Below, piece after piece: positions 5,438 through 62,422 of a stretch of DNA of 64,000 bases; the stretch's first letter is position 1, and each line of letters starts with the position of its first letter. The position numbers and the translations under genes are program-made. The stretch spans positions 10,921,769 through 10,985,768 of the forward strand of contig NC_092572.1 in assembly GCF_037975245.1 (NCBI RefSeq), given 5' to 3'. The notes beneath the pieces were generated by a model. The model saw only the letters and a program-made list of their open reading frames with translations. It searched no databases and was not told where the DNA came from. The DNA is from Apostichopus japonicus. Lineage: Eukaryota; Echinodermata; Holothuroidea; Aspidochirotida; Stichopodidae.

Positions 5438-5740
5438 ACAAGAAATGAACACAAAATATAAACGCAGAATACATCAAATATCAGTGCAGAATACATTAAA
5501 TATCTACACAAAATATCAACGCAGAATACACAATATCAACGCAGAATACAAAAAAAATATCAAAGCAGCATAATGCATTTCTATCTGGATCAAGAAATCA
5601 TGCTAATAGGTATGAACAATACAATGGTAGTCATCGGGGATCCAATTTTTGTGACAGCAACCAAAATCAGCTTTGGTGGTCATCTGTCCAGGTATTTGAC
5701 CCAGGAGCTTCCTAAAAAGTTAAAAACTACCTTGTTTGAT

Positions 5741-21600: not shown

Positions 21601-23250
21601 CAGTTTATGTATATATAGTTACGGTACTGAGTGATCCTACGCTGTAACACATACGCAGAAACCTTCATCATTAAAGATCAAAGTGAAATACATAGATAGA
21701 GGATTGTCATTCAACTGCATTGAGAGTCACAACACTGACAACGTTATAAATTAGTCTATATAGTCCAAAGAATCGCAGAACATTGAAATATTTTCTCTAG
21801 TAAACGGGCTATTGATGCGTACTTAGAGCGAATGTTTCTAGTACATGAATTCTGATGAAGTGAATTGTATACTAAGATGTGATAGAAACTGCAAACTGAT
21901 TTTACTAACATATCAGGTGACCTTTTGGAACATAACTGAAATGTAATATCCTTTCCCTTGCGGTTTTAGCAAATTTATTTCTGACTCAGTATAGGGGGTT
22001 GAAAATGGTAACCACTGCATTTCATATACTACTGCAAATACATACTAAGCTGAAATTGTTTTGCGTATTTTTGGAACTAATGAATCTAATGTCCTCGCTC
22101 TTTTTGCCCCGTCCCCCTTTTCTGTTTTATCGCCCGTTTTATCGCCCGTTTTTTCCCACTCTATTCTTCTGCATATTCATTCATACATTCATCCATCTAT
22201 CCATTTATGGATCCTAGCATCCATTCATCTTTCCATCCATTTATCTGTCCCCTTTTCTTTACATTTTACATTTTACATGCATCCATCCATCCACCCATAT
22301 CTTTCCCAGTCTCTTCCTCACTCCCGGTTATTTGAAGGTATACAGAAAGTATATTGATAATACATTCATTCATTTACCGCTTTTTCCCTTTAAACCCAAA
22401 TTGAAAGTTCATAGCAGAGTCGAATACTCTTTGATATGAACTTTCAATTTTACGAGCTTCCGATACAACGTATGAATAACTTATTTGCTGTTTTAAGCAA
22501 TGATTAGTAACGATTAAGGTTTCATCTGTCGTAAGTGAAACTGAAGGAAGATTTCAAGCTAACAACGACCTCACTATCTGCGACCTTTTCAATAGCTTAC
22601 TTCCTGTAAGTATACTCAGCTGTATCCTTGCCAGGCATACCTGGAAATAATCAGGTGTTGCCTAACATAAAATACATGTCTAGAGTACTATCTACAAACG
22701 TTGCTAGATTGAAGTTCTCACGCATATGTGTTCGGTGTCCAGCGTCCACAGTTAATGATCAACATAAAAACGAAAATGGGTAATGAACACCGATAACGAA
22801 AATAGCCTAGTGTCATTTCACGTCTGCACCGAAGTGATTCCTTGTGAAAACTGCACACTGTCTTTTAATAAATCAGAAACAGACTTATTGCATCACACTG
22901 TCATTCAGTTTGCCGAATATTATCAAAATTATCCTTCATATACATCATACGCTACTTCAGTACGGTATTATTGAGGTATTACAGGCTGCGACATCCAGGG
23001 ACTATACAATTTCAACAGAAAATGAAACAAGCTGGTTTGCTTACGGTTAGTTTAAAAGTTGTCTACATGGCTCGGATAAGAACATTTCTTAGTGAATATG
23101 GACGTGTAACATCAAGTAACGTCTGAACATGGGCTCAATGATTCGTAACCATATAGGTTGTAGGAAAGAATGAGTCACCCAACCCAGTACTCTGATGTGT
23201 CAAACATAGCTCGATCCTTAGCATTGAAATATTCCAAAATGAAAGAAAAC
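15676..23250. other. Long stretch without a supportable gene
   Basis: About 7.5 kb of AT-rich DNA. Visible structures are homopolymer C/G runs near 15,998, 16,240 and 16,327, a G-rich then (GA)n tract at about 19,667-19,730, and a (CATT/CATC)n low-complexity stretch at about 22,170-22,290. Open frames are short and lack domains. The 3' untranslated region of gene A probably lies in the last part, below 23,251, but I could not fix a polyadenylation site. Confidence 0.45.
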
Positions 23251-26200
23251 TTACCCTTCCTTGTTCACAGTTGCATACATAGGTCTGTTTGTAATTTTCG
23301 AGGCGAAAGAATTGTAGCTTTGATTACCTAGAGCGCGCAATCTGAAGCAGGATATAAAAGAAGAAAAGTTCACGTCAAAGCACATCATATCAAATCACGA
23401 TACATCTTATGATCTATATACATGATTTTCTTTGATGGTAGTTTGATGGGACGGTTGGCTTGTGGTGATGATTTCTTTGTACGACAACTAAAAATCAAAT
23501 GTTGATAATTTCGTAACCACGTTGTCATGAGAAAACCTCATGCTTGAAGAAAAGCAAAAAATGTGTTTGTTTTATATATAATCCATAAATCCAAATCTAA
23601 TTTTTACATTGCTCAAGTTATCGTATAGTGTCGTGATTCTGGGCTTCCCTTTCAAACACATTACACACGACGGTGCACTTCTAGCATTACCTTGCTCCCA
23701 CAAGGGCGTAGCCTATATCATCATCGTCGCTTTCAGAGGACGAGACCTGATCTTCCGACGTGGACTCTTTGGGTTTTTCAGAGACACTGTATCAGGTTAA
23801 AATAAAGTAAATGGATCAAACTAACGGAAAAGCATAGTTTCATCAAAAAGTTAGCATGAAAATTGAATATTTGTTGGAGAAAGTATTCACCTTTCTTTTC
23901 TTATATATGCACAACTTAGCTGGCAGAATGTTAACTGCCAGGATTCCTGTTTTGAAATCAATGTCAAATAAAACGCACAACTAATGCAACTTTGAAAAAA
24001 AAACATTTCGGTTTTCTTATATAGTCTACAAGTTACGTGACATCAGCACCTGTCACATTTGTTCAAACGAAGTGACGGCACCCAAACATGTCCATATTAT
24101 CTCCGTTAGCTGTTTCCTTTCACACAAATGGAGCTTAAGCTATACGGAAATAATAAGAAAAAAAAATCATCTGGGATTTTATATAAGCAGGCCTATCCAG
24201 TGAACTTTGTTCCTAAAAGCTACTTCCAAATCTGAGTCCTTCAATCTTCTCTTTTATATGTACTTATTTAAACTTAATTTATCTGATTACTACAATTCAA
24301 CGATACTTACTTTATGTATGAATGTTTGCACTTTCTGTCCGATGCATTACCTGCAACGATATTCAAAAGAAATATGATTCATACTCAACAATCTAGATCA
24401 TCAGTTGTTTGAACGATATATAATGTTTGAAAAGATTTAAATGCTTATTACTTCATTCGTGTTGTTTTGCTTAAGATAAAATTAATTCCATTTGGACATG
24501 AGGCATTTAGCAATCTATGATATGCAGCAGTAAGGTGTTGCTGAATAAATTGCTTTCTTTATTACGTAATGTCGTACTTTGATTTAGGCATTCGCAGCAG
24601 TAAGCAATGTTATCTGGCAACGTTTGAGTAATCCTGTCATATAAGAACAGACAACAGTATTTATTGCTTTTCATTCATTTAGATGAGAGACTAAACACTG
24701 ATGAAAAGTTGTTTTAGGCAAATGAACCAATATTATTATAATACAGATATCAGAGAGCCGTTAAATACCGGTTTTAAATGAGTTTCCAATTGTTTCAATG
24801 CGTGTGACGCTGCGTTTTGCGTTGTGCGTCGGTGTTGTGCATGTCGTCGTGCGGGTGAACTGCGTCCTTGGTTTAAATTAGCCATTATTCTGTTTGCTTC
24901 TGGTTTATTCTAATTAATTGATTCACAGTAACGATTACGATTGATGAAGATTGACGTATATTTGTTTTGTATAGGATTAAAGTCAAAAGATTCATTCACA
25001 CAACGCAGATATCAGATCAGAATTGCAGATTAGCAGATCGGGTCAGATCAGCAGATTGTGTAGATCAGCAGATTGTCCAGAATGACTGCCTGGAACTGAT
25101 TTTGAAGATATATTTAATTCAGCGGTTTGATATCTGCGTTGTGTGAATTTTTGGATGTGTAACTGTTGAAAACAAATCTCTAGGAGATTTTCACAGGTTT
25201 ATTTTCTCTTCACTTCTGTGTAAAGAGGGACACATCAGGGTACAGACTCGACCATCTCCGTGCAAGAATCTGCTTCTAAATATCACTATAAATTTTCATA
25301 GGATAGCCTTTTACATTTCTACTGAAACTATAATATTTATAGAAATTGCTTGTAAAACCTGTTGTTTCGAATGTATGGCCTTTGGTATGTATTGGTCCAT
25401 TATTGGTCCTTTCTTCTCTGTATTCGATATGAGGAAATCAAAACAAAGAAATAAAACAAAGAATGAATATACTCTTTATGAAATGTAAGCTTATATCTTC
25501 TTGAGCTTGAACGACATTATGTTGGTTCTCCTAGAGCAAAGGCCCTTATACAGCAACGTTAGAGTCTCGTCACCTATTACACAAATATGAAACAACTTGA
25601 TGCAGTTGAAATAACAGAATAGTAAATCAAAATTTAGAAAGAAAACTGTTATTATAAAAGGAATACAATAGCGTAAACGAAAGTAATATTTTACAGGTGA
25701 GAAAAGAAAAATACGGGTAAGGTATTATAACGCTATATATGTAACTATATGATTTCTTAAACTAAACACGTGATGGATACATTTTGAAGGCTCAATTAAC
25801 ACCAGAATTGTATAACCTCAAAAAGTACCTAAAACAATGTACAACAAATATGCCTATACATAAGTCTGTTTCAGGATGTTTGTAGAAATGATGTCGGTGA
25901 GAATGGATTCAAGTCTTCAAAATAAACGTTACGTTAATATTGGTCAAGATATTTACTAGTTTTCAAGATAATTAATACATAGATCCTCCATGGCAAGGTA
26001 TACAGATTCACGGCATCACACGTGGCTGCAACGAATGCTCTAAATGAAGAATACATACAATGAATGGAACTCGAATGCTTCATATCTTATCTTTAAGAGA
26101 TTACTTAATCAGAAAGTTGTTTGTAAAAGGAGATGGCACACAAAAAGACAGCATAAAATATACAAAATAACACCACAATAGTTAGTACGAGATTAACAAA

Positions 26201-26531
26201 TACCTTGGAGGAAGAGGTACTATATTTTGATAGTTATCCTCACCAGGATTATCTGTAATGTGATGTGAAATATAGAAAAGAAAAAAAGGTGAAGAAATTA
26301 CTTATTCTGTAAAGACTAAAGAAACATTTTAATATTATTATTATTATTTACCAAATTTATATAGCGCTCTTTTCATGCTTAAGCATGTTCAAGAGCGCTT
26401 TACAATGATAACAAAATGGCAAAACCCTTAAAATATGAATATGAGGAATAAAATTGACACAGCTAAAATATTAATATCAAATATATATATATATAGATAT
26501 AGATATATATATATATATATATATAGATATA

Positions 26532-26600
<69 letters not shown>

Positions 26601-29600
26601 GGATGAATAATTTTAAAAATAATATATTTATAGACAAGAATACACCAAATGCGAATTGTTATCATGGTTTCTTGACAGCGTGCTAATAGGCTGGGCTGAC
26701 GAGGATATAGTTGTCTTTTTAATGAATTTGAATGTCTCATTGAAGTTTCTTTAATCACCCATCCTAATAATATGGAGATGTATTTGTATTATTTTTATTT
26801 CACAAATGATCATCAGGTGAACAGTATTCCAGAATTGTATTTTCTTTCCAGTTTTCAGATTCTAGATGGCTAAAGATTGATGTAGATCTAACTTGTTACA
26901 TCGATTTCCAATTGTATAATCTCTGTCCTTTTGAACTGATCGACACGAGGGAATGTAATTGATTAACTTTAAATGAATTAAACTTACATAAAATTTTTAC
27001 ATGGTGATTCTATTCCTTCAGTGGAAAAGTAGGCCGTCTTAAATTGAATTGACAATTGAATTAAACTCGAAGAAATGAAAGATGAAAGCTGCGTTTGTGA
27101 GGGACTGACTGGGTTGGGTGTGGTGTTGATTCAACACTGGCAGGGAAGTGAACTTAGCAGTATGTCATACACCAAAGTATACGTCTATGTGTGTCTTGGA
27201 TAGGAGTGTAAAGTTAGCATTACATAACATGTGTTCATAAGTAGTGCAACTGCAATATATTCCTACCAGCTGTAGATTTTCCTTCCACTGTGGGCCTACT
27301 AGCTGCATGACAGGCTGCCGGTAGGGTACCGTTATCTCCACTTCTACGTTCGTCAATCCTTGACATTCTCCGTAAACTGTTGGACGCATTTCTAATGAAA
27401 TCCCTAAATGGAAAGGATATACATGTTTAAAGAAAACGAAGCAGAATGTCAAAAAAGTAAATTATTTGAGTTAACATCAGAAATATTGGATGGATTGCAA
27501 CAGTACAGAATCTCTTTGTACATCAAATGGTTTGTTAAATCTGAATTGTATGCAGCTAGTACAATTCCTTTTGATAGGTTAATCGATGAAAGTAGTCGTA
27601 TTAACGTCATATGAAATTGTAGTTCAAGTGTTCACGCTATGGACATGGCCACGGTTGACTCCTTATTTCTGTCTGAAAGCTAACAACCGTACAGACATTT
27701 TCTTTTCCAAAAATTATAAAGATTTACAGTTGGTTGTTAATCAATAGATTGATTACGTCCGATAACGCTTGCTTCGGTTGTTATAAGGAATCGAAGCGTC
27801 TGGAGTCATAACACGATACAGCTTTATCCTGAATTGTTGTCGTTCTTTGTAAGCTGTTATCGAGAATGTGATAAGCTAATCACATGCGCTGTATTAACTA
27901 AGCTTATTTGGACCAACCATTGAACAGGTCTTATCATTTTCGTCTCTTCAGACGTAATAAAGATGATGGGTTCTTAACAATTTTGGTAGTTTATAGCTAA
28001 ATTGTGAAATGCCAACGAGGAATATATAGGAAAAATCATCCTTACTTTTCGATATTTGCTTCAATAAAGAAATTGTGTAATAAAAATGTTGTATTATCGG
28101 TAAATAACATTTCCGTTACCTTGTAGCTACCATTGATAATTGGTAGTGACTTTCAGTCCTACCTGAAAATAATAAAGAAAATAATGTTAATAATTGAAGC
28201 ACGATATAATGGAAATGCTCTACTTTGAAGAAGGGTATTTAAGCAGTGTTATCTCAAACCTCTCATCCATAATGAAACACGTCATTCGAGGTTAAAGTTA
28301 TGCTGTACATTTATAGGACATTTTGCTCACTGTTAAATTCTGCATACAGACATTTTACCTTATGCTACTGTCATAAATACTACATATAAACAATACACAG
28401 TACATTGTTAAACATCGTCATAGAAAGGGAAAGTAAGTAATTCATTTTCAATTTACGGTGATAACATGCGCACTATACAACAGACAGTTAATTGTAAATT
28501 CTAGTCATCAGTAACATAACGCTACAGGTATTGTGGTCTATTCTGTATGTATTTCAACGTCTGTACAGTTATTAAATGATGTTCAACATTTTTTAACAGG
28601 AGGTATGATATGCTGGCAAATTTTACTCCGAGTGGTCACATTTAATTAGCGACAGTCTACCGGACGCTGAAAGGAATCAAGATTATTTAATGCTAAAAAT
28701 GACCAATCAATTTATATATAACTATAAGTGTGTAACCTGATACTCTCGACGTTGTGCAATAATTTAATTCAAAGATAATTATGGTCCCTATATATAAATG
28801 AAACCTTTAACTTTAATATTTAGCACATAAATATTGCCAACCTTTAATAGCCTTGTTATTATCGTCAAGTGAAAGTGGAAATATGTAACCGTACTGCTCT
28901 TTTTGAATCAAGTCATAAAGAAATGGATCTTTTTAGCTTAAAACTAGTTGTAATTGCGTGCAAAAGATGTAGCTATAGGATGTATTAAGCGATTTGAAGA
29001 TATTATTCACATAAACCTGTTTTCTTTGAACAAGTGCATTCATTATTAATTATAGTAGGATGATCGAGGGAAAGTTCAAGGTGAAAACAAAGCAAGTTTG
29101 TTGAACTATTAATGGAATGCAAAAAGTTGTTGAGCATTAAGTTGTTACCTGACTTTGAAATCTTCCAAGCAAGAGCCGCAAATAGGATAACTATTGTAAT
29201 GATGCACCCACCGATTACTATCATGATCAATTCCTTGTTTCCTGAATCTGAAGGAGCTGATCATAGAAAGATGCAAAACAATGTCACTCATAATATGTTC
29301 TTACTGTAACGCAACGTAGAAAATACACATGTTAGAAAGATCATTCGATTTCTTACTAAAATACATGCACCTCATGTAGGTATTTTCTGCTTTAATTTGA
29401 AGCACCGTAATTATATTAAAGAATGAATATAAAATGAGATATCTTATGCAAATAAAAGTAATTTGTAACAATAAAATGGGATACTGGTTTGCTTCATGGC
29501 CACAAAGGATGCTATACGAAGGAAATACAGTCACCCTAGCACCCACAGTTAATGTACACTTGAGAGTAATAAAATTTGTGATTGGAAGTTAGTATCACAA

Positions 29601-32600
29601 TCCGATACTAAAACTAAAGCTGCACAGTGCCCTTAACTGTTTTAATATCCTACTCGTCCTCTAAAGAAGATATACGTTTTCCTGAATGTAACTTTATCTG
29701 CTACAGTATAGACCACGGGCGAAGAACCCATGGAGTGGGGGGATGCCCCCACCTTTTGAGCTGCTGGGGACGTAACACAAAATACCCCTCACTTTTCAGG
29801 CCTCTAATGAAAAAATAACCATCATGAAAATCAATCCACGTGTAACAAAAAACACGGGTAAGTCGAAAGATCCAGTGATGGCAAGATCGTCCAATGTCTC
29901 ACGAATACTGTTGATGTGATATAGGCTCTTGATGATGACAGTCACCAGAACAAATCGAAATGATTTGACCTAATTCTGGATATTGATAACAGCGACGAAT
30001 GTGTTGTAGTATGACGTCATTCTGTTTCCCATGTGACGTCATCATCGATTGATCGGACTTGTTTTCGCCACCCCTACCTCCCCACCTTCCCCACCTCAGA
30101 ACAGCTATCTACGCCCATGGTATAAACTGAGTAATCGTTATATATACACAGAATCATTGAAAGATAACAACCTCTAACGTGAATCATGTATCAGCCTGCC
30201 ACAACCTGTCACATGAAACATGTATCAACCTGTCACATACAACCTGTCACAGCCGGTCATAACCTGTCACAGCCTGTAACATGAAACGTCGTGAAACTAA
30301 TAGTTCCAACAGAAATAACATTTTCATCGACTACTGCCACTTTTTCTTTGTCAGTTTGTCACGTACTAGTACTCAATACTATGTGCATCCCTTCCATGTG
30401 AAGTATCTCACTAGTTAAATGATAACGTCAAATTACTCGTATTAAGTAAGGACATGTTAACCAGAACAATCCGTTGTGTAACATGGGTTTATTGTTGGTC
30501 GAATATGCAATTTCACTTAGAGTTATCCACATTAAAAACAGTTGTATTAATGAAGGAAATATGGATGATATTGTAATGTCATGGTTAATAATTGTTAGTC
30601 TTCCTTTTTAATGTTTAATGTGATTAGCTCCACGTTATAATATAACGTCGGATACCTTCAATGCGAGGATTCTTGAATTCAACTATCCTACTACTTTTAA
30701 AGGTTCTGGTGAAATGGTATTAACATATGTTATGAATCACCATATTTATTTATTATTATTACTATACATTTTGTTTACCTTCTTCTATGGTACCAATTTT
30801 GAACATGTCATATAAACCTTGCCAGAGTATATATATAGCTGCATGGTAATGGTTGTTAATATCACAATGCATGTTCAGAGGAACTTAAAACGTGTTTGAC
30901 ACTGACAATGTTTCACTGGCATCTATGAACTGCAACTTTACAGTTATAAAATGAAAAAAACTAGATCTGTAAAGCCACATAATTGTGTCCCATATTCTAA
31001 GTCGTTACATAATTTAATTTATAATTGTACTCAGAATTACTGCATGCCGGAATAACATTGCAATGTAAAACTGATTTTGTATACCATTTGTTATTTGTAG
31101 CTTACCATATAGTTGTATTTTTATCTCTCAGTTAAAATAAAAACATATATATTTATTTATTAAATTCCATATCGTATCAGAGTCGAATCTGTAATAGATT
31201 TTACATGAATTATATCGTAAAGATGTAATAAAGTTTTTCAAAAGTTCTATTACAGTGGAACATTTTTAGCCCTGTTTAAAGAATTAACATCGTTTAATAA
31301 GTCTTATTTAAGCATTTCTCTCACTGAATATATACTTAGAAGTATTTATTACTCGTTGACAATTCTGTATCCTCTAAAGTTGCGTATCGAGATCATTTGT
31401 GACGAGGTTTTGGTAGTTTCCATTTGGGTTTAAACTAACATTAAGCTAAAAAATTTTCGACTATACTTTTCTTCTTTCTGGATAGTTCTAATGACATCAT
31501 TTTCCAGTTTTTTAAACCGTTTTGACTCTGCAAGTATACTGTAGGAGAAGGGTAGTGTTACGAGGGCCCATTGTAGCCTAACGCTAGTTACTGCTAGTGA
31601 GGAACCTAATGTTATTATATAGAAAGTCTTTAAAATTGCCTACGTGATAAATCAGTATTTGAGAAATTAGGTCGGGTTACCGTGTCAGAATGTTATAATA
31701 CACGATTGTTCTGGTATATTCCTTATGATGACGCGCTGGTCTCGGGTTAACGTCGGTTTACGTGAGATCGCGTGTAAGCTGTACACATTTTCGTGGATTC
31801 TCTGGAACGTACGCGAGATATGCAAAGAACTTCCAAGAATAGAGAAACTGGGTCAAGTGTATCGAGAAAGATCTAGATGATTCTTGACATGGCGAATCGT
31901 ATAAAAGCCCGCCCAGATCGGAGAGTTTCTCAGTTTCTGAACGAATACAAGCGACGACACATATTATACCATTCTACTATATATCGTCAGTGCTCAACTG
32001 CCAGTAGTTTCTGAAGGATTGAGATATCGATAACAAGATTGATTCTACACTTCCATTCAGAAGTTTGAAGAGGACTTTGCTGTGAAAGTACAGTTTTTCA
32101 GTCTTTATTTCGGAGAAGGTGAAGAATTTCTGTCTCCGCTGAGGAAGTACGTTACGCCAGGATTTGGTGGCTATAAAGCTGATTTTGGACTGACTCTGGT
32201 AATATTTAGTCGGCGAGAAGTTCGACTTGTGCTTCACTCGATTGTGGCTGGAAGTCCGTCTTCTATTTTGGAGCATCGCCGGAAAGAAGGTGACTGCTGT
32301 TTCTGGGATCGCGAGAGACTTTGTCGAGGACCAGTGAATTTCGCGGTACAACGGACCGAGAATCGTCGTCATCAAGGTCGTGGCCGCTGAGGGATATCGC
32401 CGTTGGAAGAGACCAGCGTGTTTTAAAGTGTATCCTATCTTGTTAAGTTTGTGATTAATTTTCTATATATTTGTAATTACCACTTGTTGTTGTTGATTCG
32501 AAATCCATCGTTAAAAATTAATTATCGAGACCTCTCGCATTCCAACGTAACAGTAGCCTGACGGCTTCGCACACAATTTTTGAAACCAGGTCCCTCAGGT

Positions 32601-34895
32601 AGCTTCTTCAATTATATTAATTTTACACACGGCAGATCTATACAGCAGGAAAGTTTAATGAGATGTTTATCATTGTAGTGAGCATGCAAAGACACTTGTT
32701 AATATGTTAATGTTGTTGATATGTAATGTAATGTCGTTGATATACTAGGGCAAAGGTCTATATATTTTTAAAGTGCTATATAGCACATGATTCCTCTTCA
32801 TTGAAATGCAATTCATTTCAATTGTTTCACTTTCATAATTTAGTAATTATCAAATGTTCTTCCGATGTTAATAGCTCTCCCGATGTTAATGGCTAGTTAA
32901 AAAAAATAATAAATAGATAATCAAATTATGTCAATTGTGGTGATGAAAAAACAATTAAATACTGTAATCAATTGGTAATGTTTGGTTGGAAAAATAGGCA
33001 TTCGTTTTATTTTGGTTTTAAAATGTTCATTATTAATGAGACAAGTGCACAATTAGTTTATTCAAATGATGTTGCCATATTACTTACTCTCACTGATCTG
33101 TACTTGTAATGTCACACTACTGTTGAGAGATGGATACTCCTCTACTCGACACCACAGAGACTTCCCATCATGTTGACGGTTCGCCTTTAGCATCAAACGA
33201 CTGCACATTTCTTTGTGATTGTCGATTGTCGTAAGGGTTTCTTGTGGTAAGGTCTGTGCATTGTCTTTACTTTCTCCGTTAATTAGCCACCGTAGTCGCA
33301 TATCGTTACTATGTGCATTAAACTGTATACAGCAGTCGGCCGTGAGGTTGCTTCCTTCGTTAGTAACATTGCGATCAGTTGAAAGGGTCAGATTTCCTAT
33401 TGTAAAATAGGAAGACGAATGTATAATTAAGATCTCTGTAAATGAAATTATGAGATGTAGTTATGGTGTAAATATGCTGAATCCTGGTAAGCTAATAATA
33501 ACAAAATAAAAGTGGAACTTTCACTAAAATATTAGAGTTTAAAAGGTATCGACTAGAACAGATTATAAGGTTTCACATAATATCGAAGACATGTTTTATA
33601 CACTTAAACATTTCACATAGGGAGAAAAGTGAATAGCTGAATGCGTTTTAATGTACATTGTATTAAACTAAACCCCTAGCCGGTAAGTAAAGTTAAATTT
33701 TTGTATGCTTACCCAGTAACTTGCTTTATATATGTAATACAAAATTTGATCTTCCTTTAGCTTAACATTTATATTTTTTGCCAAAACTTAGCAAGGAATA
33801 TCCGAGATCTATTAAATCCTTCAATGTTATCATATGAGTTCACTATTGTTATCGAACCTGACATTGATAATACCGGCAAGCAAGTATCGGTAACGACTAC
33901 ATTGATAAATATTTGTTGGTAAAAATGTCGTGTATTTATTTTAATAGTATCAAATACATACCTAAGACGTATAAATTGTACTGGGTGCCTAGCGCTACAC
34001 CAGTCTCACGGTAGACAGTACATTTGTACACTCCGGCGTCTTCAAATCCAACCTTCTTGATTGTTAAAATAGACTGGGTATTGCCTTCTTTTTGCGTATA
34101 TTTGTTACTGTGAGATCTTAACAGTTTTGTTCCATTATTCAACGTCCATACCAATGAGAGGGGGTTATCACCATGGCACGTTAGCGACTGGTCTGTGTTA
34201 ATGATGGCGTGTAGAACAATTTCATTTGCAAGACCTTGGCGTGGATGAGGAAAGAAAGTTAACATAACAGTAATTAATTTTAAAACAATGATCAATGTTT
34301 AAATGTTTCCATGATCATAATTTAACTGAGTTTTTATTAAATGCCATAATCAAAACCTTCAACTAGTCAAATGTGACATAAAAAAGAAATCTGCTACAAA
34401 TCTGATACCAGCATTTGTATGTTATTTTTCAGTTTTTTGTGATATGTTCAATTCAACCAGGCCTGCTATCGATGGATACATGTCCTTGTACTATTCACTG
34501 TTAAGAACATCGTATCCAGTCTGCCGCGTGATTCTATTGCCCTATTACATTATATCACACATTACCTCACCGCAAAGCTAAGTCATTGCACACACCCGAT
34601 ATCGATGAAGAGCGATACGTGTTGAGTGTAGACATAAAGATCACAAGTTTCCTTCGTTTCTTTGTCGTTAGATTGTAGTAAATAATTGTTAGATTTCTGT
34701 AAACGATGCTGTCATAAGTTGATTGACACTTCAGCAAACTCTCATAATAATTGTCAGTGTTTGTTTCATTCAATTACAATGCATATTGCACATATATAAC
34801 AATGCCTAAATGACACAAAATGACATGAAAGACTTACCCATTTGGATTAGTGTAATACATATAAGCAGGCTTCCACTGATGCTGGACCTGGTCAT
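23251..34895 (-). CDS. Gene A: two-Ig-domain receptor with ITIM-like cytoplasmic tail
   Basis: Single-pass cell-surface receptor, 379 aa, from nine exons read right to left: 34,895-34,838 (leader, [19 protein letters not shown]), 34,234-33,962 (Ig1, 273 nt), 33,396-33,088 (Ig2, 309 nt), 29,256-29,149 (transmembrane), 28,162-28,120, 27,403-27,267, 26,252-26,204, 23,786-23,691, and 23,317-23,251 with stop TAA. All introns are GT..AG, phases agree at every joint, and the total is 1,140 nt. Ig1 (about residues 20-110) has SLTCHG, VWTL and GVYKCTV, the Cys-Trp-Tyr.x.Cys core. Ig2 (111-213) has ADCC, LRWLI and LWCRV. The membrane helix is near 225-245 and uncharged. The tail has SHYQLSM, DNYQNIV next to PLPPR, DIGYALV (fits the ITIM pattern I-x-Y-x-x-V), SYNSF and MYATV. 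The last acceptor is ambiguous: an upstream AG would need a different phase. The ligand is unknown; the signalling role is inferred. Confidence 0.75.
24994..25148. repeat. Short element with perfect 21-bp terminal inverted repeats
   Basis: Bases 24,994-25,014 and 25,128-25,148 are exact reverse complements (start ATTCACACAACGCAGATATC). Between them lie several direct repeats of CAGATCAGCAGATT-type sequence. It looks like a tiny MITE or hairpin element inside the gene A intron upstream of the VSEKPKES tail exon. I saw no clear target-site duplication. Confidence 0.75.
26480..26597. repeat. (TA)n microsatellite in gene A intron
   Basis: Nearly pure TA dinucleotides over about 118 bases with a few GATA and TTTA interruptions. 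Open frames of alternating Ile/Tyr on both strands are artefacts of the repeat. Just to the left (26,361-26,404) is an imperfect palindrome, AGCGCTCTTTTCATGC...GCATGTTCAAGAGCGCT, able to form a hairpin. Confidence 0.9.
29714..30119. mobile_element. Probable hAT-like MITE, 406 bp, in gene A intron
   Basis: The left end CACGGGCGAAG matches the reverse complement of the right end, CATGGGCGTAG. Flanks GTATAGAC and GTATAAAC agree at 7 of 8 positions, consistent with an aged 8-bp target duplication. C-rich and G-rich blocks lie near the ends, as in the 365-bp element at 13.9 kb. No transposase is present. It lies between the Ig2 and transmembrane exons of gene A. Confidence 0.6.
30170..30295. repeat. 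Short minisatellite, AACCTGTCAC units
   Basis: Irregular repeats of (C/A)AACCTGTCACA alternating with TGAAACATGTATC occur over about 125 bases in the intron of gene A. No function is evident. Confidence 0.75.
31556..32552 (+). mobile_element. Solo LTR of an LTR retrotransposon, 997 bp
   Basis: The segment begins TGTTACG and ends CGTAACA, a perfect 7-bp inverted terminus of the TG..CA type. It is flanked on both sides by GTAG (31,552-31,555 and 32,553-32,556), a 4-bp target duplication. An internal promoter-like TATAAAAG lies at 31,900-31,907 on the plus strand. No gag, pol or second LTR is present, so it is a solo LTR left by recombination. Two overlapping open frames on opposite strands (31,977-32,375 minus; 32,082-32,390 plus) have no known domain. 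It lies in the gene A intron between Ig2 and the transmembrane exon, antisense to the gene. The superfamily is probably Ty3/Gypsy-like, by target length only. Confidence 0.8.
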
Positions 34896-37800
34896 ATTGG
34901 AGTAAACGTTGTTTAATCTCCAGAGAGAAACCCTGTTGTTAACACTCCCGTTTCTACAGTCGTCGCTAATTATGGCTCGTTACTTGCTGAGAAATTTCAC
35001 ACTACTGTCTTGAATATCTGTAAGCAGTATCTCTTGCTTGTATGAAACCGCAAGTGTAATTAATTACCGATTAAAGGTCCCGTCTATAGCAGTGAAGCTC
35101 TGATGCATTAACTGCTATATTCCCATTCTTAAGTAAAGTGGAATATACAATCTCCACTTTCCCAAAATTATGCTTGTAAAAATTCATTGGAATTGTGAAA
35201 CTTATTAAGTTTATTAAACCTTTTCAAGACATAACCGCATATCAATTGGGTCGGCATTGCAAATAAATACAAGAGCAATGTCGCCATCATCTAATCATCC
35301 TGATTGACAATTGCTGATGTTTTCATCGGCTAATTCTGTACCTCTTACCGTTGTTGCAAACAACACAATCGCCATGCCATTTTCCATCTAACTAACACGA
35401 CAATTCTGTGACTTCGGCACTGAATCGCAAGCAGCTGCGTATTTAAGCGAACTATTTGGTATAATCGACGAAGTTTCCAGTTCTGCAAAACGAACTTACT
35501 TTATTCCAGCTTACTTACATTCGGAAAGACGCTTCTCTTCGTTAATTCAGACGGAGTTAAACGAGACACTTAAACAGTGCAATGCGATTGATAGGATATG
35601 GCATCGAATAGCGCTCGATAGGTAGACGCTACTTGAATGAAATGTAATAAATGGCTTCGTATCTTTAAGTATGCCTATAGCGATTTTGCTGTTGTGTTTA
35701 TAAAGGTTTTTCCACAGAAAAACGATAAATTGCTTTCATTTGTTGCTGGTGATATTATATTTGTCTTTTTTCTTCTTTTCTGGATTAAACCTGTATGAAA
35801 CAATTTGGATGTGGACAGCTTGATCTTACTATTTAAGCAAGGAATGCTTGGCGCTAATCATTTTCAGGAAGTAACAAATATGCGGTGATTACTTTAAAGT
35901 TACAAAATGGTTTAGTGTTACCGATCAGCTCATGTTCCAAGATATCAAACAGGTCATTTCTCATAGCAGCTGTTATCTGAACCTCCCATCTTGTTTCAAG
36001 TTTTATATCAATCGAAAAGTTGAACTTGTTTCCAGTTTGGAAGCTTTAGTTTCAAAATGATCATATTTTAATGACGTTTTTCACTGTCAACGACAGAAAA
36101 CCAGAATATTTACTTTATTGTATGAGAAGAGCTAGTAGCACTCCTTCAGTAAATGGCCCAAGGACACGAATGTAGTAAGCATGTAATATATGAATCGCAT
36201 GTTATGTACATGCAATACATGTTATAAGCATGCAATATATGATTCACATGTAATAAGCATGCAATACATGTAATAATTGCATGCAATATGGTATTCGCAT
36301 GTAATAAACATGCATTATATGATACACATGTAATTAGCATGGGGAGAGGGGGAGGATGAGGAGGTGGAAGGGCGGGGGAGGATGGTGTTGAGGATTTAAT
36401 GACCGACATGTATGTATTATACACTGTAGTAAAGACGTTAATTAATGTTCATATTAGTTAGTTCATGGAAGAGCAAAATGGGCATATAAGGGCAATCTCA
36501 TGAAAATATATCTACAACATTTCGGCGGAAGCATTTTGAATGAGGAAGCGTTTAACAATTTTTTTTTAAATGATATTCTGGTTTTACTTAGTAACCTGAT
36601 AAATGTTATATTGTTTAGAGGATGTTACAAAATAGAAAATGAAATGTACGGTATTTATTCATTACACTGAAAGTCAACAATACTCTCTCCATCCCATCAT
36701 TCCCCCTTCCCGGAAAATAATGTGACTTTTCAGAGAATTAGCGTAGTTACACTTTTTCTGACCTCTATCTATGTCTTTTCCATTTTTCAACATCAATATT
36801 TGCTAAACTTTGATACACCTGAACGACAGAAATGTAAATATGCAATCTCAATTTGTTTTAGTTTCTTCAATTAAGTTTAGTGAGTTGCAATGTTCGAACC
36901 AAACCAGCTGAGAAAAAGCAATACTTATGAATTCGGAGATCTTGATATTTTCCAAAGAAGAATAGCTGTGTATTCATTGTTTCTCACATGAAGACGTCTG
37001 AGTGAATCTGTTCGTCAATATCAAAACGCTTATATATTTTTTTTTCCTTCTTAATATGACAGTTGAGCTTTGGGTATGAACTGACATACCCGGTACACAT
37101 ATTTCAACCTCTGTGTCTCTAGCGTCACAGTGAAATCCAGACATTACTGTTATTTCTTGGATTAGACCTGTCTCTTAATATGTTAAGCCGGACTTATATG
37201 TAATCAGTAAGTTCATGGTTTTATATATTTGAATACAATAACGGTCCCAGATGTCATAAGTCATTACTTAGAAACACATTGAAGCAGGGACCTTTATGTA
37301 TCATTTCGTATTTTAACAGTAATTAAAGTTACACTGAACAGAAAACATATATTAATTTGACTTTCTATTTAACTCTATGTATATTTCAAAAAGTCTAACG
37401 AGGTTTGTCAATATCATTGTCTTAAAATGTTTGTCCTTCAGAAGGTACACAAAATGTCATTTAAGGACACGTGATTAGTATCATTTGTTACAATTCATTT
37501 AATTGCTATGTTATCAACACGATTACAAATCACATACCTACATGACACATTTTATGTTATAGAGAAGCTCGCAATGAAACGTGTTTTATCTGGAACATCT
37601 TCCATCATTATTTCCATTCCATCTGTCTCGGAGTTTGCCTTCAGTAGCCTATTATACACTTTAATATTATGAATAATGATTTGTTGCTTGGTGCATTATA
37701 TCATTTTGAAAACAAAAACATTCGGACCTATAAGTCCTCCTGACACTGATCTTTAAAACAAATAATAATTACAATATTATCTGTTATAAAATACTTGATA

Positions 37801-38120
37801 GTGCGTCCTAATGAATATTCATTTCTTCTCCGTAGTTTGTCATTTTAACGGTCATCAGTCTAAGGGAAAGAACAGTTTTACAAGTGCTGTTTTTCTTAGA
37901 TGAAAGTTCAATAATGATAAGGTGTTTTATATTATTCTGGAATTAAAATTTCGGTCTGTTATCCTTCTCGATGAAATTGATCTTTCACAATATACGTCAC
38001 TAAAACATTCCTGATCATAAACCAATTTGTTGCTTCCTCCTCATCTTGGCTGTACCCCCCACCACTGAAGTACCCTAGTGGGTGGTAGTTGAGGGGTGGG
38101 GATTATTGGAATGTTACATA
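34896..38120. other. Intergenic spacer between genes A and B
   Basis: The spacer recurs with high identity at about 44.1-47.7 kb and 53.8-57.3 kb. It should hold the promoter of gene A (on the right side of its leader exon) and the 3' end of gene B. A conserved block at about 35,429-35,447 has GCAGCTGCG next to TATTTAAG, an E-box-like and TATA-like pair on the plus strand, also present at about 44,635 and 54,322. I see no exon in the spacer; the frame at 36,146-36,424 is minisatellite. Confidence 0.55.
36170..36345. repeat. GCATGCAATACATGTAATAA minisatellite, spacer copy 1
   Basis: Degenerate repeats of about 20-40 bp, rich in GCATG, CAATA and ACATGTAATAA, end at a purine-rich patch GGGGAGAGGGGGAGGATGAGG. 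The same array sits at the matching place in the other two spacers (about 45,383-45,552 and 55,065-55,228), so it predates the unit duplications. CATG and GCATGC palindromes give it hairpin potential. Confidence 0.8.
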
Positions 38121-39290
38121 TTACATAGGTTGTAAGTAGTGACAATAATCATCGGTGCTTGAGTAAACATGTGCAGAAGGGTTTTCTTCCTCATCCGTAA
38201 GTCCTTGGTGTTGTAACTCTGATATACCTGAGACACTGTTAAAAGAGAGAAGCAATAATTTGAATTCAGGTGAACGAAAACCATGCATGTCACTACAGAT
38301 CAATGTTATTAATTTTCATGTAATTGTGCAACACAAGGGTTATACAACGTTTTCCAGTTGAGTCAGGTCGAGATCAGTCGCACATTGCGCTGTAGACTCT
38401 ATGAGATGTCGTTTGTTTTAATCTATTCGAATAAGATTAATAGGAAACCAGTAACAGTTCTTGTTTTCTCATAGCTCGGACATTAGAAATTTAAAAAAGT
38501 AAATTCGCATTAGATGCAAATATATCCAACTTAAGACCATTGTCGATTAAATTACAATTTGCGTATAACTGTGTGAGATTCTATTCCGTATAATTATTCA
38601 GGAGGTTTCATAATGTCGCTATTTCGTAACGTATCCTAATTGTTGCATGGTATTCAGAGAATTGTGTTATGCTTAGTGTGGCACACGCTGTGTAATACAG
38701 TTCATTTAGTATGAATATGAAAAGTTATTTCGTAACGTATTTTCACTGTTTCTTTCACGTTCCTTCAATTTTAGTGACCATGTAACTTGCATAACACCTC
38801 AGGAGTCAGTCTAGTATCTTATACTCCGTTAAAAGATTACATTAGTCCTTTCGATGTTTCCCACGTGGTTCTGTGTCGTTATTTTTCGAACTAGAAGTTA
38901 TCATTATCATAGCCAGTACTAACAGTTGGTATTGTTGCTGCACTCAGAAGGTACGAACCAGCTAGTCATGTGGAATTTCATTGTTTATCATTCCATATCA
39001 CACACGATTATATTTGTTTCGACTGAAAGACACGTATTCTCCTGCTGAATATTACAGTAAATTCAAGATGAATATGGCAGACAATTATCTTTGCCTTACC
39101 TTTGGCCAACAATGTCATAACCTTCACCATTCCGATTGTCATGAACGTTAGATTTAAGCGACGATCCGTCAGATGGGACACATTGTAACCTTTGTATAAA
39201 GTAAAAAGTATTGATAACAATAAAAAAGAATAAAATAAAATATATATATATATATATATATTTTACACATACATATATATATATACATAC

Positions 39291-39357
<67 letters not shown>

Positions 39358-39401
39358 AATATATATATAAATAAATTTTTATATATATATATATATATAT
39401 A

Positions 39402-39444
<43 letters not shown>

Positions 39445-42039
39445 TTAGTCCAGTTATTTCTTTTAACTATGTGGCAATAAGAAGTATTGTAGTAATAAAA
39501 GAAACTGAAAAATGATAGTTGAATAACGTGTGTTTCATTTGATACCTTTACCAAGTCTGTTGAATTCAATATCGGTAACCGCATGTAAAACTTTATAAAG
39601 AAAACTTTCATGTGCTTCTTTAAATTTTAAACTGAAATGACCTACGATATTATATATATATATTTTATATTTGATACATCTCATGTTTAAGGCATGTAAA
39701 TTTACATGCTTACATTCGAAGTGGAAGTCTAGTTGGACTACCTCATACTTTTATTAGTCTTACATATTACCTTTGATCCACAATTTCATAACCTTCGTTA
39801 TCAATACTACGAATGCCAGTTGTGGAGTCGGTCGTCGTCTTAGCCCAATGTTTTCTGGATGTAAGAGGAATATTCGATAGCAACGAGAACATGCCCACTT
39901 TGTTGATAGGAAAATAATTACAGCAGCATTTTCATGTTACATACGACAGTTGTATCATACGTCATATGTATACATATGTGACAGTACGGTAGTTTGAAAT
40001 GTTTACATTGATGTCTAAAAATACCAATATTATTCCGGAAGTTCTGTGTCAGACGATAAAACACCCTCACCATCATCATATTGATAACAAAGAATATCAA
40101 ATGTTAGTACTGGTCTTTCTTTCTTAAGTGATTATCCATGCTACATATATAACAGTATTACCTGCAGGGAAACCGAAGAACGTGGAATAAACCTGTAATA
40201 CAGCGAGCATCTGTGGAAAACGCACAAATGATATAAGGGATGATAATGCAATACACACATGAAGGCAAAGCAACAATATTGTGCAAACCTGCCATGAAAT
40301 GTTACTAATAATACTGCCATGAAATGTTACTAATAAATCTACTTCTATCAGAAATTCCTTAGGTTTATTTTCTAGGTAATATGGTTTTCGAATGAAAAAA
40401 ATTGTAATCGATGACAATATGATGATTTGTCTTGTTTGTATACTTTGAACAAAACCAAACACGAGAGCCATGCAAGGAGTTACAGATCTCATCTCCTCTA
40501 AAAAAAAAATAAAAAAAAACATTAAGGTTTTTCGACCTTAGACCTCTGACGTTAGACCTCTGACGTCATCAATCACGTAGGCACAATGTTACATAGTCAG
40601 TCATCTACCTACCGAGTTTAAACTTGCTCAGACTTACGGTGTGGGATGAGTTCACGACACACTTTTGCGAACAATGTAGGCCAACTTGACCTTTGACCTC
40701 AATTTTCATTCGACCCGACCCTTACCACCTAAATCTGTCCTACTTTAAAATTCTTCTCATTATTCTCTACATATGTTGTGATCGAATGCTTTGTTCCTAC
40801 ATGTTGACAAACAGAAAATGGGTAAAGGGTAATGTTTACCTTTACCTTTGACCCACGCCCTATGAGCTATGACGTTACCAATCACGCAGACACAAGGTTA
40901 CATCGTCAGACACCTACTCACGAAGTTTGCACTTGATGGAATTAACGGTCTGGAAGGAGTTCGCGGGACACTCTTTTTCTCACTTACACACCCGCCTCCT
41001 CACATTTCTGATGTGGGGTTAAGTACCATATCTAATCTCTCTATGTATTCCTTACATGTAGAGAGATGAGATCAATAGGTTCTCCCTGGTACTTTACTGT
41101 AAAGGAGCAACATTACAGCAAATCCGACAATTAGCAAAAAAGCTTGCATTTAAGTTAAGTTTAAGGTGGCAATTATTCTGAAAGTGATCCATTTGCAACA
41201 ATAATAGAAAATGACAGGTTTCGCATTTGTCGGAATATTAACGTTTTGGTTTCCCTTCTATTTATAACTCGCACGCAAGAGGAAATGTTATTGTAAGTAT
41301 GGTGTATTCCATGACACATTGATATTAAGTTATAAATTCCATGTTTTTCATTAAAAAACATAATATTAGATATTAGGATATACTTTAATCAATTGAAAAG
41401 CGACTCCTAAGTATTGACTTTAACATTCATCCTGATTATGGAACTGCTTAATTGTTGACTGTATTCACGGAATGAACACTGGAGTACTACCTTAACAGTT
41501 GTATACCCTCGGGGTAGCGTTTATTAGTGTTTAGATCGAAAGCACTTGTTTGTTCGCTCAAACAAACGAATCGGGGGTCCAGCGTTGTTATTCTTACCAG
41601 ATTTGACAATCTTCAAAATTAAAACCGATGTAATCAGAACAGTAACAACTACAAAGACAGCCACATATGTCCATAGTTTGTCCGCTCCGTCTACGAAAAA
41701 TGATAAAAATAAAAAAGATTTATGAAAATAAAACGGAAACTTGTTTCATAACTTCCTTCTTGATAGAAGTTAGCATCATATTGATCTTTAGAGTATATCA
41801 AAATATGTCACCAAACAGTACTAGCATTGTTCGATACAGGTGGCAAAATGCGATGAACATTTTGAGAGAAGCAGTTTTTCAGCCGGATTATTCGGAACGT
41901 GCGTGCAGTTTAGTTGCTCTGAAAAGCCCCAGTAGAACAAGTAAGCACGTCTGCAATTTTGTGTACAAGGGCGATGATTCTGTATTTTCGTGATACACCA
42001 CTGGATGTTTCAAAGTAGCTCCCTACTGTGTGTATATAG

Positions 42040-42072
<33 letters not shown>

Positions 42073-42101
42073 TATATAAATATATAGATATATGTAGATA
42101 T

Positions 42102-42137
<36 letters not shown>

Positions 42138-44097
42138 TAAATTCAAATACAATTAAAATACTGTCATAAATTTGGTCCACGTTTGGTTGGATAAATGATC
42201 ATTTGTTTTACTTTGGTTTTATAATGTTCAGTCTTAACGAGACAAGTTCACAATTAATTTATTCAAGTGGCGCAGCCATAATACTTACTCTCATTGATCT
42301 GTACTTGTAATGTAACACTACTGTTGAGAGATGGATACTCCTCTACTCGACAACCCAGAGACTTCCCATCGTGTTGACGGTTCGCCTTTAGCATCAAACG
42401 ACTGCACAGTTCTTTGTGATTGTCGATTGTCGTAAGGGTTTCTTGTGTTAAGGTCTGTGCATTTTCTATACTTTCTTCGTTGATTAGCCACAGTAGTCCT
42501 ATATCGTTACTATGTGCACTAAACTGTAAACAGCAATCGGCTGTGAAGGGGCTTCCTTCGTAAGTAACATTTCGATCAGTTGAAATTGTCAGATTTCCTA
42601 ATGTTAAATAGGAAGACGAATGTATAATTAAGATCTCTGTAAATGAAATTATGAGATGTAGTTATGGTGTAAATATGCTGAATCCTGGTAAGCTAATAAT
42701 AACGCAACAAAATAAAAGTGGAATTTTCACTAAAATATTAGAGTTTAAAAGGTATCGACTAGAACAGATCATAAGGTTTCCCATAATATCGAGACATGTT
42801 TTATACACTTAAACATTTTACATAGGGAGAAAAGGGAATAGCTGAATGCGTTTTAATGTACAAAGTATTTAACTAAACCCCTAGCCGGTAAGTAAATTTA
42901 CATTTTGTATGCTTACCCAGTAACTTGCTTTATATATGTAATACAAAATTTGATCTTCCTTTAGCTTAACATTTATATTTTATGCCAAAACTTCTCAAGG
43001 AATATCCGAGATCTATTAAATCCTTCAATGTTATCATATGAGTTCACTATTGTTATCAAACATGCCATTGATAATACCGGCAAGCAAGTATCGGTAACGA
43101 CTACATTGATAAATATTTGTTGGGAAAAATGTCGTGTGTTTATTTTAATAGTATCAAATACATACCTAAGACGTATAAATTGTACTGGGTGTGTTTCGCT
43201 ACACCACGCTCAGGGTAGACAGTACATTTGTACACTCCGGCGTCTTCAAATCCAACCTTCTTGATTGTTAAAATAGACTGGGTTTTGCCTTCTTTTGACG
43301 TATATTTGTTACTGTCAGATCTTATCAGTTTTGTTCCATTATTCAACGTCCATACCAATCTGAGGGGGTTATTAACATGGCACGTTAGCGACTGGTCTGT
43401 GTTTATGATGGCGTGTCGAACAATTTCATTTGCAAGACCTTGGCGTGGATGAGGAAAAAATGTTAACATAACAGTAATTAATTTCAAACAATGATCAATG
43501 TTTAAATGTTTCCATGAACATAATTTAACTGAGTTGTTGTTAAATGCCATAATCAAAACCTTCAACTAGTCAAAAGTGACATAAAACAGAAATCTGCTAC
43601 AAATCTGATACCAGCATTTGTATGTTATTTTTCATTTTTGGGGGATTTGTTCAATTCAACCAGGCCTGTTATCGATGGATACATATCCTTGTACTATTCA
43701 CTGATAAGAACATCGTTTCCAGTCTGCCGCGTGATTCTATTGCCCTATTACATTATATCACACATTACCTCACCACAAAGCTAAGTCATTGCATACACAC
43801 GATATCGATGAAGAGCGATACGTGTTGAGTGTAGACAAAAAGATCACAATTTCCTTCGTTTCTTTGTCGTTAGATTGTAGTAAATAATTGTTAGATTTCT
43901 GTAAACGATGCTGTCATAAGTTGATTGACACTACAGCAAACTCTCATAATAATTGTCAGTGTGTGTTTCATTCAATTACAATGCATATTGCACATATATA
44001 ACAATGCCTAAATGACACAAAATGACATGAAAGACTTACCCATTTGGATTAGTGTAATACATATAAGCAGGCTTCCTTTGATGCTGGCCCTGGTCAT
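38121..44097 (-). CDS. Gene B: two-Ig-domain receptor with tandem EGYxIV tail
   Basis: Complete 354-aa single-pass receptor from seven exons read right to left: 44,097-44,040 (leader [19 protein letters not shown]), 43,438-43,166 (Ig1), 42,597-42,289 (Ig2), 41,690-41,598 (transmembrane), 39,897-39,771, 39,189-39,100, and 38,235-38,121 with stop TAA. Introns are GT..AG and phases run 1-1-1-1-2-2, 1,065 nt in all. Ig1 (about 20-110) has LTCHV, VWTLNN and GVYKCTV. Ig2 (111-213) has ADCC, LLWLI and LGCRV; Trp before the second Cys is Gly here. N-glycosylation sequons include NGT, NVT and NSS. The membrane helix (about 219-240) is [19 protein letters not shown]. The tail has EGYEIV, then EGYDIV from the next exon, then HVYSS and [10 protein letters not shown] at the C-terminus. 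The tyrosines look like SH2 docking sites; no canonical ITAM spacing. Ligand unknown. Confidence 0.85.
39239..39440. repeat. (TA)n microsatellite, unit B tail intron
   Basis: About 200 bases of TA dinucleotides with CATA and AAATA interruptions lie 50 bases upstream (in gene sense) of the second EGY exon of gene B. The matching tracts are at 49,136-49,293 in gene C and, much shorter, 58,681-58,727 in gene D. Ile/Tyr open frames here are artefacts. Confidence 0.9.
40530..41090. repeat. Diverged tandem repeat with DR1-type site, unit B
   Basis: Two diverged copies with a period near 308 bp start GACCTCTGACGTCATCAATC (40,554) and GAGCTATGACGTTACCAATC (40,863). Each continues with CACG(T/C)AG(G/A)CACAA and a later (T/C)TACC or CTACTCACGA block. 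The first copy holds TGACCTTTGACCT at 40,687-40,699, the reverse complement of a DR1 nuclear-receptor-type site; the CGTCA/TGACG half sites are CRE-like. The block recurs in units C (about 50,360-50,890) and D (about 59,660-60,200). It looks like repeat DNA rather than a gene. Confidence 0.7.
42030..42136. repeat. (TA)n tract at the ectodomain/tail boundary, unit B
   Basis: TA-rich DNA between the Ig2 exon and the transmembrane exon of gene B. It ends about 15 bases before the sequence ACAATTAAAATACTGT, where homology to gene A's intron (32,951) begins. Unit D has a matching tract at 62,719-62,744 beside the same sequence. Confidence 0.85.
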
Positions 44098-45382: not shown

Positions 45383-45552
45383 TAGTAAGCATGTAATATA
45401 CGAATCGCATTATATGTACATGCAATACATGTTATAAGCATGCAATAGATGATTCACATGTAATAAGCATGCAATACATGTAATAATTGCATGCAATATG
45501 GTATTCGCATGTAATAAACATGCATGATATTATTCACATGTAATTAGCATGG
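45383..45552. repeat. GCATGCAATACATGTAATAA minisatellite, spacer copy 2
   Basis: Orthologous position and near-identical sequence to the array at 36,170-36,345, in the spacer between genes B and C. It is followed by the same GGGGAATGGGGGAGGATGAGG-type purine patch, apart from single-base changes. Confidence 0.8.
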
Positions 45553-45799
45553 GGAATGGGGGAGGATGAGGAGGTGGAAGGGCGGGGTAGGATGGTGTTG
45601 AGGATTTAATGACCGACATGTATGTATTATACACTGTAGTAAAGACGTTAATTAATGTTCATATTAGTTAGTTCATGGAAGAGCAAAATGGGCATATAAG
45701 GGCAATGTCATGAAAATATATCTACAGCATTTCGGCGGAAGCATTTTGAATGAGGAAGCGTTTAACAATTGTTTTTAAATGATATTCTGGTTTTACTTA

Positions 45800-49256: not shown

Positions 49257-49296
<40 letters not shown>

Positions 49297-58682: not shown

Positions 58683-58719
<37 letters not shown>

Positions 58720-62049: not shown

Positions 62050-62113
<64 letters not shown>

Positions 62114-62319: not shown

Positions 62320-62383
<64 letters not shown>

Positions 62384-62384
62384 C

Positions 62385-62422
<38 letters not shown>

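Follow-up and report, generated by a model that had tools for sequence, protein, structure and literature searches.

Paired receptors are defined, in the available text of one review, by an immunoreceptor tyrosine-based inhibitory motif (ITIM) in one partner, the other having a short tail and a basic residue in its membrane segment (PMC3533184), and the accessible part of a second source describes putative pairs of Xenopus CEACAM proteins with an IgV domain that is 80-93% shared (PMC5112662). Among invertebrates, excerpts of the literature describe the FcoR proteins of Botryllus schlosseri (fester co-receptors of the fuhc locus), whose tails carry ITIM, hemITAM (ITAM being the immunoreceptor tyrosine-based activation motif) or YxxI/L/V core motifs (PMC12065747), and the Alr proteins of Hydractinia, which are clustered immunoglobulin (Ig) receptors with tyrosine motifs (as summarised in the available text of PMC12065747 and PMC11999971). 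In sea stars, coelomocytes distinguish self from non-self, and no receptor is named in the part of the report available (PMC9763293). Among the matches listed in the open-licence literature, which were available in part, none describes paired Ig receptors from an echinoderm, and the accessible text of a 2026 review on immune diversification that includes sections on echinoderms mentions neither ITIM nor ITAM (PMC13428168). Here we consider a window, the whole stretch of 64,000 nt that was analysed, from the sea cucumber Apostichopus japonicus (NC_092572.1, 10,921,769-10,985,768), whose minus strand carries four receptor genes, transcribed in the order D, C, B and A. Each encodes a leader, an I-set-like first Ig domain (Ig1), a C1/C2-like second Ig domain (Ig2; both Ig types come from weak Pfam matches), one membrane segment and a tail. 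We think it fairly probable that these genes belong to a tandem family of single-pass, two-Ig receptors with two tail classes, A and B, between which Ig1 is exchanged and from which two phosphotyrosine outputs would arise.

About 110 kb of sequence that overlaps and extends the window (104 kb of it new, the overlap being identical over 5,768 bases) places these genes in a larger cluster on one strand, in the order X, H, G, F, A2, E, D, C, B and A; extended coordinates continue the window numbering. The cluster contains two A-tail genes (A and A2), seven B-tail copies, four of them open, and one three-Ig relative (X), and in each of its two blocks the B-type genes come first and a single A-tail gene forms the last 3′ unit.

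The original prediction for this DNA was that gene A joins the ectodomain of gene B to an unrelated membrane segment and tail. The near-identity of the leader, Ig1, Ig2 and their introns is borne out: A and B align at 93.9% identity over 3,946 columns (32,947-36,874 against 42,145-46,077), from upstream of the genes to intron 3, with 95.5% in the 5′ flank, 94.8% in the leader, 96.2% in intron 1, 93.4% in Ig1, 96.4% in intron 2 and 91.9% in Ig2. By pairwise alignment, the homology of A to B, D, E and F ends within intron 3 of A at 32,943-32,948, and that to C and H stops at 33,031 and 32,923, respectively; the two A-type genes part from B, D, E and F at one shared point (32,943-32,947 in A and 104,741-104,745 in A2). 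A comparison of 21,000-32,942, on the A side, with 36,595-64,000 gave zero blastn matches (word size 7, E ≤ 0.01, dust on), and the tails show no significant likeness, so that the exons after Ig2 are indeed unlike those of B-D, but the word 'unrelated' may be too strong for the membrane segment. The motifs IGYALV in the A tail and EGYEIV/EGYDIV in the B-D tails are present as predicted. We judge that the sharing of an ectodomain between A and B, combined with an unlike 3′ half, is more than chance.

The evidence that ectodomains have been exchanged lies in the comparison of A with A2. Both genes are within a duplicated block, in which 14,383-26,495 matches 87,535-99,603 (extended) at 95.9% over 12,211 columns and 27,061-30,886 matches 100,247-104,177 at 92.0% over 3,943 columns, gaps counted; further pieces of the block extend to 3.9 kb. 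Over 5,179 ungapped columns, the seven 3′ introns of A and A2 agree at 96.2%; only 13 of 618 bases separate their membrane and tail exons, and intron 3 beyond the border is 92.6% identical over 366 columns. Yet the two Ig1 domains share 54% identity over 90 residues, with a synonymous distance of 0.25, and identity is 86.8% in intron 1 and 78.8% in intron 2. The Ig1 of A resembles those of B-type genes (G 96%, F 88%, B 87%; synonymous distance 0 to 0.017), the Ig1 of A2 resembles that of the B-type gene D (86%; 0.085), and Ig2 identity among A, A2, B, C and D is 75-87%. Because a block that is about 96% alike contains Ig1 domains that are 54% identical and that match those of B-tail genes, we deduced that the outer domains move between the tail classes. 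Sliding comparisons through Ig1 gave 92-97% identity for A-B and 72-79% for A-A2; from the end of Ig2 into intron 3 (33,103 to about 32,550), A-A2 identity is 80-91%, and A-B identity drops to 83%, then 65%, and ends. In a tree of Ig1 plus intron 2 from eight genes, the grouping of A with A2 is rejected (delta log likelihood 410; approximately unbiased (AU) test, 2e-82). In a protein analysis of six sequences, with P0003 dropped, none of the three alternatives reached an AU value above 3.6e-5; the unconstrained protein tree had bootstrap support of only 27-71, and P0007 sat on a long branch in it.

The original prediction had also raised the question of whether A-type tails occur on other ectodomains. 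They do, in P0002 (gene A2) in the same cluster and in P0003, an A-tail protein on another contig record that, from its BSL78 tag, we take to stem from a different animal or assembly. P0003 has a partial Ig1, which is best matched by that of E (33 of 40 residues; 22-28 of 40 for the seven others). Each of three Ig1 lineages is therefore found with both tails, although E has an apparent frameshift and P0003 is a partial sequence. The sequences show that ectodomains are shared between two tail classes and that Ig1 is diverse and recombines; the exchange occurred by recombination, through either gene conversion or unequal crossing-over.

The roughly 1 kb that contain Ig1 appear to be far older than the sequence on either side. 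Among the informative sites of A-D, all 24 in Ig1 and all 85 in intron 2 separate A and B from C and D, and those in Ig2 are distributed 3, 6 and 4 among the three splits. In 200-column steps, A, B and C are pairwise 89.5-99.5% identical at 36.8-34.8 kb and 91.5-95.9% identical at 33.54-33.15 kb, and A-C identity goes down to 63-80% between 34.48 and 33.54 kb. Ig1 of A and B differs by 17 nonsynonymous changes and one synonymous change, and the A-B nonsynonymous rate exceeds the intron rate in Ig1 (one-sided P = 0.006) and, by the same test, in Ig2 (P = 0.019). Across the 28 Ig1 pairs of eight genes, the nonsynonymous-to-synonymous ratio ranges from 0.78 to 5.5 in the 27 pairs with a finite value, 23 of which are above 1; synonymous changes are absent from the remaining pair, A-G. 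The membrane and tail exons of A and A2 are less diverged than their introns (P = 0.03).

When the loops of Ig1 were placed by the Cys-Trp-Cys pattern, 11 of 12 A-B differences fell in 40 of 90 positions (P = 0.0004), the loops having been placed after the alignment had been seen, and A2-D showed no enrichment (6 of 13 differences, P = 0.56). Loops taken from a discarded Ig1 model contained 6 of 12 A-B differences (P = 0.03), and 4 of 10 pairs gave values above 0.05. An enrichment of Ig1 differences in loops is suggestive only. The structure models were discarded (mean predicted local distance difference test score 34.8 for full-length A, built from six sequences, and 64.1 for Ig1 alone), and a Foldseek search of the PDB with the Ig1 model yielded nothing at E ≤ 0.001, the best 50 rows being free of Ig entries.

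What signals might the two tails carry? The A-type tail is long, with six tyrosines, four YxxI/L/V matches (shuffle P = 0.003), an acidic-flanked YQNI and a single ITIM pattern, IGYALV. The B-type tail is shorter, with two YxxV motifs, EGYEIV and EGYDIV, 30 residues apart (Y283 and Y313 of P0004). The hemITAM consensus is acidic-GYxxL, and the A tail has one match to this pattern (shuffle P = 0.001, the pattern having been written after the tail was seen). Because of this likeness to a hemITAM and the acidic residues before the tyrosine, the sign of the A tail seems ambiguous, ITIM or hemITAM-like. A distant homology of the A and B tails was tried and rejected (hhalign probability 2.8%; local score P = 0.16), and the A tail has no significant likeness to that of P0007, the product of gene X (P = 0.37). 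By eye, and unproven, the exon ends in phase 2 of both tails share a GY-A/D/E-L/I-V likeness, and A and B have the same phase order (membrane exon 1-1, next exon 1-2). The A membrane segment resembles that of P0007, with a score that 1 of 2,000 shuffles attained (P = 0.0005); against that of B, P = 0.039.

The intron in which the homology ends also holds a clue to the origin of the A half. In intron 3 of A, at 31,486-31,551 on the minus strand, there is a decayed third Ig exon resembling Ig3 of P0007 (22 residues, 77%, 41.6 bits, where 300 shuffles gave 30.8 at most); the relic in A2 is longer (81 query residues, 49%, two stops, 73 bits), and in B-H none reached 22 bits. Because both A-type genes retain this decayed exon, the ancestor of the A class was most likely a gene with three Ig domains, such as X has remained. 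Together with the membrane segment like that of P0007, the relics argue that A most likely represents an old sister class whose ectodomain was renewed from the B class, and not the capture of an unrelated gene.

How might like ectodomains have come to stand on unlike tails? The sequences show that the 5′ half of the gene (leader, Ig1 and most of Ig2) has been exchanged between the classes by recombination with a border in intron 3 of A, placing the same Ig1 lineages on both tails; the Ig1 protein differs strongly between lineages, and the two A tails are well conserved. In our preferred explanation, one kind of ligand could, on binding, set off two distinct phosphotyrosine outputs within an individual, SH2 phosphatases and adaptors being drawn to the A tail and other SH2 proteins to the B tail, and selection would diversify Ig1 and keep both tail classes supplied with matching Ig1. 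Different outputs from the two tails are likely; opposite outputs we place somewhat below an even chance. A more ambitious version, in which three Ig1 lineages each occur on an inhibitory (A) and a stimulatory (B) tail, a recombining cassette matches their specificities for allorecognition or the recognition of pathogen decoys, and this echinoderm paired-receptor system evolved independently of those of vertebrates and tunicates, seems to us doubtful. Several observations weigh against our explanation. The single ITIM match of the A tail is near chance, with 16% of shuffled tails also having one (P = 0.16), and the two A tails are too similar to show conservation of the motif independently. 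A pattern scan of the B tail found no ITIM and no ITAM, and translations inspected by eye show no charged residue in the membrane segments of B-D. The excess of nonsynonymous over synonymous change in A-B Ig1, taken alone, gives P = 0.056; 15 of the 27 finite Ig1 ratios lie within 0.78-1.5, and the pairs are non-independent; the A-A2 tail ratio, 0.65, is mild. Part of the family is probably dead, judging from the 14-base insertion in E, the truncation of G and the stop in H, and E is the sole B-type gene of its Ig1 lineage. Among the best 60 of 205 solved-structure matches of the B ectodomain, the leading ones are Dscam (3.8e-10), NCAM2 and contactin-5, which are adhesion molecules and not immune receptors. 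Finally, like ectodomains are expected from recombination at the end of a tandem array without selection for pairing.

This last point leads to an account by neutral array dynamics, in which the A tail is an old end unit whose ectodomain was overwritten by unequal crossing-over, with no functional pairing. The position of the A-type gene as the last 3′ unit in both blocks, the common homology border in A and A2 and the three of seven B-type copies that look dead are all as it would have them; however, the A tail exons are more conserved than their own introns, both A-type genes have complete open frames, and the A-B amino-acid changes in Ig1 exceed the intron rate, and we regard this account as possible but unlikely. 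The receptors could also serve adhesion or allorecognition, as do molecules of the Alr or CEACAM sort; Ig1 would then bind its like, and the tails would differ only in how strong one signal is or where it acts. The variable first Ig domain, the clustered family, the closeness of the B ectodomain to Dscam, NCAM2 and contactin-5 among those best 60 matches, the label 'Cell adhesion molecule 2' given to P0007 in one source and the allorecognition shown by sea star coelomocytes in the available part of that report (PMC9763293) would fit, although such matches draw on features general to Ig domains and P0007 probably received its name automatically; we hold such a role to be a tentative suggestion. 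That the exons of two genes were misjoined, or that the assembly is chimeric at 32.9 kb, is largely excluded. The database proteins are predictions, including P0001, which joins the A ectodomain to the exons at 29.2-23.3 kb and so speaks against assigning these exons to a different gene; but two loci, A and A2, show the same joining, as does P0003 from a different contig record; past the border, intron 3 is common to A and A2; and the splice sites of the models are in phase. Returning to our preferred explanation, the paired-receptor interpretation in the original prediction stands for the like ectodomains, the unlike tails and the single cluster, but its opposing signals stay conjectural in view of the ITIM and ITAM results and the uncharged B membrane segments.

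The splice models from which these comparisons were made have AG and GT sites in phase in A, B, C, D, F and A2. The translation of gene A equals the NCBI predicted protein P0001 letter for letter, and that of B equals P0004 exactly; D, with its leader and the start of Ig1 taken from the extension, equals P0006, the A2 model is identical to P0002, and C is identical to P0005 except for three leader residues. On the minus strand, gene A consists of leader exon 1 (34,838-34,895), the Ig1 exon (33,962-34,234; Pfam Ig_3 and I-set), the Ig2 exon (33,088-33,396), an A-type membrane exon (29,149-29,247) and tail exons at 28,120-28,162 (SHYQLSMV), 27,267-27,403, 26,204-26,252, 25,359-25,417, 24,311-24,350, 23,691-23,786 (IGYALV, matched in the motif scan) and 23,255-23,341 (PMYATV), followed by the last coding exon (21,061-21,079; AKRKK stop). 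Gene A had been thought to stop at 23,251, but a GGGTAAGT donor at 23,255 closes the exon there, and coding resumes at 21,079-21,061. The exon list given earlier lacked A exons 25,417-25,359 and 24,350-24,311 and one exon of B-D (40,210-40,162 in B). The B-type tail is carried by gene B (38,121-44,097, minus strand; exons 44,097-44,040, 43,438-43,166, 42,597-42,289, 41,690-41,598 for the membrane segment, 40,210-40,162, 39,854-39,771 with EGYEIV, 39,189-39,100 with EGYDIV, and 38,235-38,121), by gene C (47,736-53,783, minus strand; exons 53,783-53,726, 53,032-52,760, 52,169-51,861, 51,532-51,440, 50,073-50,025, 49,714-49,631, 49,084-48,995 and 47,850-47,736) and by gene D (57,284-64,000, minus strand, leader outside the window; Ig1 to 63,762, then 63,196-62,888, 61,584-61,492, 59,341-59,293, 58,982-58,899, 58,640-58,554 and 57,398-57,284). 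A model of gene D lacking an Ig2 acceptor was rejected, the acceptor used by the database models being present in all four genes. By eye, a second acceptor lies 39 bases upstream of the Ig2 acceptor (33,397-33,435 in A and 42,598-42,636 in B) and would add 13 residues; its AG is kept in C and lost in D. P0005 has the body of gene C and the leader MTRSSISGS, as in A, F and G, in place of that of the gene C leader exon (53,726-53,783); F and G are 63-69 kb upstream of gene C, and this leader might reflect cross-gene splicing, another allele or a model error.

Of the genes in the extension, X (137.4-130.1 kb) has three Ig domains and a B-like tail and encodes P0007; H (128.4-124.0 kb) has no Ig1 that could be found and a stop in its membrane exon; G (122.4-120.5 kb) lacks most of Ig2 and all tail exons; F (116.5-110.2 kb) is complete, with a B tail; A2 (106.7-94.2 kb) has the A tail; and E (74.2-68.2 kb) has a B tail and a membrane exon that ends with 14 inserted bases. 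A genome search that took in the species' own assembly (671.6 Mb in 35 contigs) scored 99 of 105 candidates and placed A-type tail exon A6 at two loci, those of A and A2 (E ≤ 0.001). Protein searches returned the same seven proteins throughout (6 of 4,209 candidates at E ≤ 1, 3 of 922, and 7 of 5,105 at E ≤ 10), and the named ones are all from Apostichopus japonicus. More distant two-Ig relatives lie upstream of X (L028-L031, 152.3-167.2 kb extended), and further ones occur at 21.4-21.9 Mb of contig C12, with 25-34% identity. Mobile and repeated sequences are also present. About 740 bases at 60,443-61,179 in gene D, absent from B and C, have inverted, CCGG-rich ends (TAGGGATGCACCGGATATCCGG...) and look like a non-autonomous DNA transposon. 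Broken remnants of a LINE-type (long interspersed nuclear element) reverse transcriptase occupy 3,815-4,774 on the minus strand, with an RVT_1 match within 3,815-4,162 only, and recur partly, from 3,892, in the extension. A repeat unit of about 200 bases is present in two copies at 5,038-5,442 and forms a longer array at about 76.2-79.3 kb (extended), beyond gene E.

The cluster offers a concrete, sequence-defined candidate set of self/non-self receptors in a class related to the sea stars, and it would add another case of one binding surface feeding two signalling tails. Like Hydractinia Alr, as far as the available summaries describe it, the cluster combines Ig receptors with tyrosine motifs. 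It shares with Botryllus FcoR, in the portion of that account available (PMC12065747), an Ig receptor cluster in an invertebrate deuterostome and tails with tyrosine motifs, and in both tail classes the tyrosine is preceded by acidic residues, which recall the FcoR core and hemITAM motifs. Unlike FcoR, which have V-type Ig, sushi and two C2-type Ig domains and some of which switch motif by allele or splicing, the sea cucumber receptors have two Ig domains and no sushi, and the motif switches between genes; Pfam searches found Ig families, at E of about 0.1 only DUF3185 and LRR19-TM, and no sushi domain. The vertebrate immune receptors CD22 and Fc epsilon receptor stand far down among the best 60 of the 205 B ectodomain matches. 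With the paired receptors of vertebrates (KIR, LILR, PILR, SIRP, Siglec and CEACAM), the cluster has in common like ectodomains, unlike tails and a single small cluster of genes: the extracellular region is shared across tails (86-96% in Ig1, against the 80-93% given for IgV of the Xenopus CEACAM pairs in the text available; 75-87% in Ig2), and the exon that probably binds ligand, that of Ig1, is kept alike by recombination. It differs from them in belonging to an echinoderm, in having one weak ITIM pattern, and in a partner, as seen in B-D, that has neither an ITAM pattern of its own nor a basic or otherwise charged membrane residue. Because this defining feature of the partner was looked for and is absent, we do not class the cluster as a paired-receptor family, although by all appearances it works like one.

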